A stretch of DNA of 64,000 nucleotides, taken from positions 1,279,001 through 1,343,000 of the forward strand of contig OX638375.1 in the NCBI GenBank assembly GCA_951813575.1, read 5' to 3'. The notes below the pieces were generated by a model. The model did no database searches, was not told where the DNA came from, and saw only the letters and a list, made by a program, of their open reading frames with translations. Positions 23,716 through 46,360 of the stretch are shown piece by piece (the stretch's first letter is position 1; each line of letters begins with the position of its first letter). The translations under genes were made by a program, and so were the position numbers. This stretch comes from Candidatus Binatia bacterium. GTDB taxonomy: Bacteria; Desulfobacterota; Binatia; UBA9968; JAJDTQ01.

Positions 23716-24954
23716 CTATCGAGTGAACGCACCCGCGCTTCTCAGCGCGGCGATCTCCTCCGCGCCGTATCCCAGCACCTCGCTCAGCACCTCGTCGGTG
23801 TGCTCGCCCAGGAGCGGCGAGCGCTCGACCTCCACCGGCGAGTCCGAGAGCTTGATGGGGCAGCCCACGTTGTACCAGGCCCCCCGCTCGGGGTGGTCGA
23901 CCTCGACCATCATTTCCCGGAGCTGGACATGCTCGTCATGCGCCAGATCCTTGGTGCTCATGATGGGGCCGCAGGGAACGTCGAGATCGTTGAGGATCTC
24001 CATCAGCTCCCATTTGGTGTAGTCACGGGCGAACTCGGCCAGCAGGCGCCACATCTCATCCTGGTTGGCGCGCCGGACGTCGATGTCCGTGAACCGCGGG
24101 TCCTCGGCCAGCGCCTCGCCGCCGATACGAGTGGCCAGGGCAGTCCACACGTGCTCCTGCACCACCACGTAAAGGTAGTCGTTCGCGCCGCCGGGCTTGC
24201 ACGGGACGGCGTTGCCCAGTTGGCCGCCGCCGGAATCGTTGCCCGCCCGGGGGGTGAAGTCCTCGAACTCCTGCACCGAGTACTCGGCCAGCGGGCCGTG
24301 CTCGATGCGTTGATGGTCCCGGAACTTTACCCGGCAGAGGTTCATGACGCAGTCCATCATGGCGGTCTCGACGTACTGGCCGCGCCCAGTGCGCTCCCGC
24401 TGGAGCAAAGCCGCCAGGATTCCGGCCAGCAGGTGCACGCCGGTGCCGGAGTCGCCGATCTGGGCGCCGGTCACCACCGGCGGGCCGTCGAACATGCCGC
24501 TGGTGCTCATGGCGCCGCCCATGGCCTGGGCCACGTTCTCGTAGGCCTTGAAGGCGGCGTAAGGACCTTCGCTGCCGAAGCCCTTGATGGAGCCCATGAT
24601 CAGCCGGGGGTTCAACTCGTGCACCTTCTCCCAGCCGAATCCCAGACGGTCCAATACGCCCGGGCCGAAGTTCTCGAGGAGGACGTCGCACTCTTTCACC
24701 AGCCGGGTGAACACCTCCTTGCCGCGGTCGTTCTTCAGGTTCACCGTGATGGAGCGCTTGTTGCAGTTCAGCATGGTGAAGTAGAGGCTGTCGGCGTCGG
24801 GGATGTCCCGGAGCTGCTTGCGCGTGGCGTCGCCCGCGGGGGACTCGAGCTTGATGACGTCGGCGCCGAGGAAGGCCATGAGCTGGCTCGAAGTGGGGCC
24901 GGCCTGGACATGGGTCATGTCCAGGATGCGAATGCCGGAGAGTGCCTTGTCCAT
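23716..24954 (-). CDS. Class III CoA-transferase, close to formyl-CoA:oxalate CoA-transferase (Frc)
   Basis: A 412-residue CaiB/BaiF family enzyme. By eye it aligns with Oxalobacter Frc almost without gaps over the first 170 residues. It keeps HVQAGP (Gln17), the catalytic Asp as Asp168 in GAQIGDSGTG (Frc Asp169), the stretch DSLYFTMLNCNKRSI, and a glycine-rich GGGQ loop. The position of Frc Trp48 appears to be Gln47, so acceptor specificity may differ from oxalate. The start is the ATG at 24954 with AGGGAA upstream. It is the second gene of the operon, between a TPP lyase and an acyl-CoA synthetase, which fits a 2-oxo- or 2-hydroxyacyl-CoA cleavage route. Confidence 0.85.
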   Translation of the reverse strand: MDKALSGIRILDMTHVQAGPTSSQLMAFLGADVIKLESPAGDATRKQLRDIPDADSLYFTMLNCNKRSITVNLKNDRGKEVFTRLVKECDVLLENFGPGVLDRLGFGWEKVHELNPRLIMGSIKGFGSEGPYAAFKAYENVAQAMGGAMSTSGMFDGPPVVTGAQIGDSGTGVHLLAGILAALLQRERTGRGQYVETAMMDCVMNLCRVKFRDHQRIEHGPLAEYSVQEFEDFTPRAGNDSGGGQLGNAVPCKPGGANDYLYVVVQEHVWTALATRIGGEALAEDPRFTDIDVRRANQDEMWRLLAEFARDYTKWELMEILNDLDVPCGPIMSTKDLAHDEHVQLREMMVEVDHPERGAWYNVGCPIKLSDSPVEVERSPLLGEHTDEVLSEVLGYGAEEIAALRSAGAFTR

Positions 24955-45747: not shown

Positions 45748-45796
45748 AAATCTGCTCCGCGCACACGCGGGGGCGCAAACTTCGAAGGAGGAAGAC

Positions 45797-46360
45797 ATGT
45801 TGCGACTACTGTCCTACGGCCCTTGACCGTACGCCCACAGGACAAGGCTTGTCCTGGCGGAAAAAGACATCCCCTACGACCTGGTGGAGTGCGATCTCCA
45901 GAACAAGTCCGAGGAGCTCGTCACCCTCAACCCCTACGGCAAGGTGCCGGTGCTGGTGGACGGCGACACGGTGATCTACGAATCCGCCGTCATCAACGAG
46001 TACCTGGACGAGAAGTTTCCCGAGGTGCCGCTGATGCCCAACGACCTGGCGCAGCGGGCGCAGGTGCGGATCTGGATCGACTTCTGCAACACCCGGCTCC
46101 AGGCCGCCGCCGGCAACATCCGGCACGACCACGAGGTCGAGAAGAACAGGAAGCGCCTGGCGGAGCACCTGGCGACGCTGGACGAGCAGATGGCCGGCAA
46201 AGACTTCATCGTCGACGACTATTCGCTGGCGGACATCACCTATGTCCCGTTCTTCACCCGGAAAGACCACTACAAGGTGTCCATCGGTGATGAGTTCCCC
46301 AACGTGAAGCGCTGGCGCGAGAGACTGCTGGAGCGGCCGAAGGTGAAGTCGACGCCGTAG
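45797..46360 (+). CDS. Glutathione S-transferase with in-frame TGA read as selenocysteine (Sec10)
   Basis: A 187-residue GST. The thioredoxin-fold N-terminal domain is MLRLLSYGP-U-PYAHRTRLVL, followed by the cis-Pro/GSH-binding stretch LNPYGKVPVLVDGDTVIYESAVINEYL, then an all-helical C-terminal domain with VDDYSLADITYVPF. The single TGA (45824-45826) falls at the catalytic Cys of the Cys-Pro-Tyr/Phe motif used by omega- and SspA-like GSTs. The frame is intact before and after it. AAGGAGG lies 7 bases before the ATG. A SECIS-like hairpin begins 11 bases after the TGA (45838-45856). A Sec would suit thiol-transferase or peroxide chemistry. The alternative, a nonsense mutation, is less likely given the hairpin and no other lesion. 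Confidence 0.82.
45838..45856 (+). promoter_or_regulatory. Bacterial SECIS-like element
   Basis: CAGGACA-AGGCT-TGTCCTG, a 7-bp perfect stem (9 bp if the loop closes fully) with apical loop AGGCU. It starts 11 nt after the TGA, the same distance as the fdhF minimal SECIS, whose loop is AGGUCU. It would recruit SelB to recode UGA as selenocysteine while encoding His-Arg-Thr-Arg-Leu-Val-Leu. Confidence 0.75.

Follow-up and report, generated by a model that had tools for sequence, protein, structure and literature searches.

The locus studied here raises the question of whether an in-frame UGA codon in a gene resembling glutathione S-transferases (GSTs) ends translation or is read as selenocysteine (Sec) and, in the latter case, which activity the protein would have. 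The window, i.e. the whole stretch of 64,000 nucleotides that was analysed, belongs to a Candidatus Binatia genome contained in one contig of 4.21 Mb.

A GST-like gene with an in-frame UGA codon

The forward strand of the window shows an open reading frame between positions 45797 and 46360 which, with TGA translated as Sec, encodes a protein of 187 amino acids and ends at a TAG stop codon. A Shine-Dalgarno-like AAGGAGG is located at 45785-45791 of the same strand, with the ATG 5 nt downstream. In frame with this ATG (45797) there is a single TGA, at 45824-45826 on the forward strand, which corresponds to residue 10 of the predicted protein (MLRLLSYGP-U-PYAHRTRLVLAEKD...). The same codon is TGA in 57 distinct homologues, and homologues without TGA show a Cys or a Ser at this position. 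The genome contains 16 GST-like matches and only this one, named here SecGST for selenocysteine-containing glutathione S-transferase, has an internal stop. Since comparisons within the genus give dN/dS values of 0.16-0.29 for the part located 3' of the TGA, this part is under selection as a protein. Automatic annotation would make the gene truncated or let it begin at 45884, and the catalytic residue would be lost.

A SECIS-like hairpin downstream of the UGA codon

The preliminary description had reported a hairpin 11 nt after the TGA, and it was found base for base at 45838-45856 of the forward strand. The 11 nt (45827-45837) are followed by CAGGACA (45838-45844), the apical AGGCT (45845-45849) with a conserved GG, and TGTCCTG (45850-45856). 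The stem contains seven perfect pairs, or eight with A45845-T45849 as the closing pair of a GGC triloop. The minimum free energy (MFE) fold of 43 nt shows the hairpin together with a lower pairing between 45832-45835 and 45856-45859, with an energy of -14.1 kcal/mol and a z-score of -2.02; seven of 200 shuffled sequences fold as well, and the z-score in a context of 104 nt is only -0.80. This optional lower stem, CGCC/GGCG with a 3-nt bulge, flanks the hairpin at 45832-45859 (forward strand) in the fold of the window sequence, and is absent from the consensus fold of 44 homologous sequences. A published bacterial SECIS (bSECIS) model gives as constraints an apical loop of 3-9 nt located 16-37 nt from the UGA and with a G among its first two positions, an upper stem of 4-16 bp and an MFE of -7.5 kcal/mol or lower (PMC13188914). 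The hairpin fits these constraints as given there, with a GGC (or AGGCT) loop 19 (or 18) nt after the UGA, a stem of 8 (or 7) bp, a stem energy of -9.2 kcal/mol and the context fold of -14.1 kcal/mol.

The spacing had also been described as exactly that of Escherichia coli fdhF. The distance from the UGA to the base of the stem is indeed 11 nt in both, but the apical loop starts at 18 nt here and at 17 nt in fdhF, i.e. 1 nt further from the UGA in SecGST. The fdhF 45-mer used for this comparison matches at 99% or more in 5,363 of 5,369 matching records, and fdhF is annotated in the three matches listed. Both elements share an apical AGG (AGGUCU in fdhF and AGGCU here), but the fdhF stem has a bulged U, while that of SecGST has no bulge, is longer without interruption and belongs to another protein family. 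The claim that a perfect stem is unlikely by chance holds to the extent that the probability of seven Watson-Crick pairs out of seven, given the peptide HRTRLVL and the codon usage of the clade, is 0.0038. It was nevertheless overstated, since, when both strands of the window are scanned, five of 1,533 TGA triplets, the SecGST TGA among them, are followed by a perfect stem that reaches 8 bp or more and whose loop contains a G and lies in the SECIS range. The Rfam search of the window gave no match at the gathering threshold, and a covariance model built from the hairpin gave one strong match in the genome. Taken from a single sequence, the hairpin makes a modest case which is suggestive and not decisive; the decisive evidence comes from the homologues.

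Among the four other look-alikes in the window, the longest open frame belongs to that at TGA 24879 on the forward strand, a perfect 9-bp hairpin 30 nt after the TGA (24879-24935). The translation of this frame, inspected by eye, resembles no selenoprotein. By eye, the complementary strand near this position resembles the 5' end of a CaiB-type CoA-transferase gene, and since the gene there seems to be encoded on the opposite strand, this hairpin looks like a chance SECIS look-alike.

The hairpin is conserved with the UGA codon

Of the 148 class genomes searched, 38 have a match at E <= 1e-40, and in 36 of these the match contains one TGA. After removing copies of one locus reached via two collections, the first homologue set contains 46 sequences with TGA, 17 with Cys and four with another residue (above 90 bits); homologues with neither Cys nor TGA at or below 90 bits, which are distant GSTs with mostly Thr or Pro at the site, were excluded from the pairing table. 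The hairpin is in register, with at least six of seven pairs, in 44 of the 46 TGA sequences, none of the 17 Cys sequences and one of the four others. The two remaining TGA sequences, like ten more of their kind described below, carry a different SECIS-like hairpin, displaced by 13 nt in the downstream direction. The proposal that the hairpin is a SECIS and speaks for recoding would have suffered from Cys orthologues keeping it, or from TGA orthologues without any stem-loop, and neither was seen in this set. Genomes whose Cys homologue lacks the hairpin include carriers of tRNA-Sec (e.g. G068, G083, G040, G065, G082, G017 and G032), so its absence is not simply the absence of the Sec trait. A register-free bSECIS scan, which required a perfect stem of 5 bp or more and a stem energy <= -7.5, was passed by 48 of 57 TGA sequences, one of 19 Cys sequences (L158) and none of 19 with Ser or another residue.

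Compensatory changes in the stem, which had been suggested as a check, are present. In the alignment of 44 sequences (37 distinct rows), 97% of cells are paired, and double compensatory changes are found at three of the eight hairpin pairs (11 cells): C-G to U-A or G-C, G-C to A-U, and A-U to G-C or U-A. Neither the compensatory cells nor the score observed are reached in any of 500 shuffles, registers slid along the alignment pair in 26-47% of cells, and RNAalifold recovers the same eight pairs unprompted. One pair is missing in nine of the 44 in-register hairpins: in four the pair beneath the A-U that closes the loop is a U-U mismatch (L110, L113, L123 and L132), four have lost the basal pair (L126, L129, L130 and L136) and one the second pair (L138). 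Codon choice is also constrained. The loop Arg is encoded by AGG in all 44 sequences and the stem Arg in 42, while elsewhere in these genes AGG makes up 7% of Arg codons. Mean synonymous divergence (pS) among 39 main-clade sequences is 0.13 for codons +4 to +10, 0.75 downstream and 0.73 upstream, and SecGST shows how strongly a SECIS in a coding region freezes codons. Since the hairpin is kept in the TGA relatives and is missing from nearly all relatives with another residue, the UGA of the GST-like gene is, judging from these comparisons, almost certainly read as Sec.

Several genomes contain two or three SecGST copies (G123, G124, G125, G127, G128, G131 and G140, with three in G131). G111 shows a partial second GST copy (G111:C863:2026-2307), 69% identical and interrupted by a TAG, which is possibly a decaying duplicate.

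Selenocysteine machinery

The genome of the window contains a tRNA-Sec gene scoring 73.1 bits (cut-off 47) and adjacent selA, selB and selD genes at G000:C1:2675632-2679930, with 585, 378 and 374 bits, respectively, all above curated cut-offs. In selD (L151, G000:C1:2675632-2676558) there is likewise a TGA in frame (VKAAG-U-AAKLG), and after it a strong bSECIS-like hairpin whose loop is about 33 nt downstream and whose apex contains GG. Given the tRNA-Sec, the three sel genes and the TGA within selD, this bacterium decodes Sec, and probably two or more SECIS elements depend on its SelB.

A tRNA-Sec above the cut-off is present in 28 of the 36 SecGST genomes. As 107 of the 148 genomes of the class have one, this co-occurrence is not discriminating. 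A new search with laxer filters found no tRNA-Sec above the cut-off in any of the eight remaining genomes, five of which show selB above its cut-off. The other three (G126, G130 and G138) carry a TGA-containing GST gene with the hairpin, and neither tRNA-Sec nor selB was found above the cut-offs. These absences may be gaps in draft genomes, an explanation that fits G138 poorly, as it is listed as 100% complete.

Other SECIS registers and the possible origins of Sec

A search of the class with one TGA homologue lacking the main hairpin gave matches at E <= 1e-45 in 113 of the 148 genomes. It gave a second SecGST group of 12 distinct TGA sequences (L157, L168 and L186-L195), all belonging to family f5 and with the TGA at the same codon. 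All 12 share an alternative hairpin, GCCCUUUU-GGA-AAAAGGGC (one with GCUCUUUU), with the loop at +32 nt. The hairpin codons CTT TTG GAA AAA GGG are invariant in the 12 sequences, and related genes without TGA mostly show other codons; the probability of eight Watson-Crick pairs out of eight given the peptide is 0.00012. A tRNA-Sec is present in 10 of these 12 genomes (not in G026 and G052). A third register is shown by one TGA homologue, L213 (G133:C207; UPWCQKVRIALAEK), which has a 7-bp stem, AAGUGCG-GAU-CGCACUU, with the GAU loop at +20 and an energy of -7.2 kcal/mol. The 57 TGA homologues therefore show the loop at +19 in 44 sequences, at +32 in 12 and at +20 in one.

In a protein tree with the Sec column masked, the +32 group forms one branch with a support of 100, located beside Ser-type GSTs and away from the +19 group. 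A second tree leaves out five rows: four long-branch or distant, and one short. A constraint that joins the two Sec groups lowers the log-likelihood by 30 units, and with an AU p of 0.072 a single clade of all Sec forms is neither rejected nor supported. The different registers suggest several independent gains, which the tree favours and does not settle (AU p = 0.07), and this is our preferred reading: with somewhat better than even chances, Sec entered the GST family of one class two or perhaps three times, always at one and the same catalytic codon, and every gain had its own SECIS in a different part of the coding region. A single gain followed by SECIS relocation and losses is less preferred. 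No description of two SECIS registers in one family was found in the accessible parts of the literature searched.

Protein fold and likely activity

SecGST matches the Pfam domains GST_N_2 (4e-22) and GST_C (5e-13). Its AlphaFold model, based on 51 aligned sequences, has a mean pLDDT of 95.4 and superposes on GSTs with Z values of 24-25 over about 182-187 residues. Residue 10 directly precedes helix 1 (residues 11-22) in this model. The phmmer alignments pair it with the Cys of the SspA-type proteins 4qq7 and 4hoj, whose entry titles state bound glutathione, and by range offset it corresponds to residue 13 of the Glycine max GST 2vo4 and to residue 32 of human GSTO2, which we take to be the catalytic Cys of that enzyme. 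The residues VP 50-51 and S63, presumably belonging to the glutathione-binding site, are invariant in the 51-sequence alignment. The protein thus shows what defines the SecGST family, namely the N-terminal and C-terminal domains of a GST and a Sec in the N-terminal catalytic position. Its gene is located in the order CDGSH, cupin, SecGST and LarE-like (names that we assume for the neighbours), which is kept in most of the genus and not beyond it, so the neighbourhood gives no functional hint.

According to a study on soybean tau GST, Ser13 is the catalytic residue, and replacement of the active-site Ser by Sec gives strong peroxidase activity and abolishes CDNB conjugation (PMC10812501). The engineered seleno-GSTs have Sec at the equivalent active-site position (U10 here against residue 13 of 2vo4), but they are made in the laboratory (PMC10812501, PMC9944854), while in SecGST the same exchange seems to have come about by evolution. 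By analogy with this chemistry, and since Sec10 is at the catalytic N-terminus of helix 1, SecGST is likely to be a glutathione-dependent selenol peroxidase or thiol transferase.

An alternative accepts both the SECIS and the Sec residue, and proposes that the protein is mainly an SspA-like regulator of RNA polymerase, or a structural GST without redox catalysis. SspA-type proteins are in fact its best sequence matches among solved structures and in NCBIfam. SecGST shares with them, and with omega- and tau-class GSTs, the fold and the residues assumed to form the glutathione site, and its Sec10 falls where they have the catalytic Cys or Ser. SecGST differs from them in having Sec in place of Cys or Ser, and it reaches 109.9 bits against the NCBIfam SspA equivalog, whose cut-off is 314. 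The invariance of VP 50-51 and S63 also argues against a purely regulatory or structural role, and a Sec at the catalytic position would hardly be sensible without chemistry there. Such a role is improbable, although it is the most viable of the alternatives, and a redox enzyme is preferred.

Discussion

We are highly confident in the reading as a whole, in which a bacterial SECIS hairpin directs the insertion of Sec10 into a GST with glutathione-dependent selenolate redox chemistry. In the proposed mechanism, SelB-GTP-Sec-tRNASec would bind, just outside the ribosome, the apical loop that contains the GG, and Sec would be inserted at the UGA (45824-45826) in place of termination. Sec10 would then occupy, at the N-terminal end of helix 1, the place of the catalytic Cys or Ser. 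The glutathione site of the GST fold is intact in this reading, and the selenolate of Sec10 would most likely drive glutathione-dependent redox reactions, either hydroperoxide reduction or thiol transfer and deglutathionylation.

It is very unlikely that the hairpin is kept for another reason, such as translational pausing or mRNA stability, and that a near-cognate tRNA reads the UGA. This possibility draws on the indirect nature of the evidence for Sec insertion in SecGST and on the three SecGST genomes that seem to have neither tRNA-Sec nor selB, but it does not explain why none of the 17 Cys homologues shows the hairpin. The hairpin geometry also fits the bSECIS model of PMC13188914, the distance from the UGA to the stem is the same as in fdhF, and the same genome has a second UGA-containing gene, selD, with a GG at the hairpin apex. 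Least credible of all is an ordinary stop in a mutated or mis-sequenced GST pseudogene, with a possible restart at GTG 45884 and a palindrome due to codon coincidence, because, although translation table 11 gives a separate 158-aa open reading frame from this GTG and perfect hairpins after TGA do arise by chance (four others in the window), 57 distinct homologues carry a TGA at this very codon, dN/dS is 0.16-0.29 3' of it, synonymous sites are frozen in the stem alone and the Sec machinery of the genome is complete.

This kind of selenoprotein is already known, as the SecGST family has been in print since 2005. Sec-containing GSTs are described from the Sargasso Sea (four sequences; PMC1088965) and from GOS (12 sequences; PMC2398784), and a 2026 review lists SecGST among selenoproteins largely uncharacterised in function (PMC13188914). 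The published SecGST (COG0625 / PF13409), as described there, likewise has a UGA-encoded Sec with a predicted bSECIS in place of a Cys, with Cys forms widespread. The likeness is one of description, and the published members are metagenome sequences, while the present gene is found in whole genomes with Sec machinery and adds the covariation evidence and three SECIS registers. Neither the placement of SecGST in this class nor covariation evidence for it was found described in the parts of the literature searched that were accessible.

With these genomes, a sparse metagenomic family becomes genome-anchored, with dozens of members. As SecGST corresponds in nature to the seleno-GSTs made in the laboratory, which have peroxidase activity, its function is directly testable. 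The three SECIS registers in one family are a test of what SelB really requires and, if true, the several gains of Sec would be a natural replicate experiment in fitting a SECIS into a fixed protein sequence.
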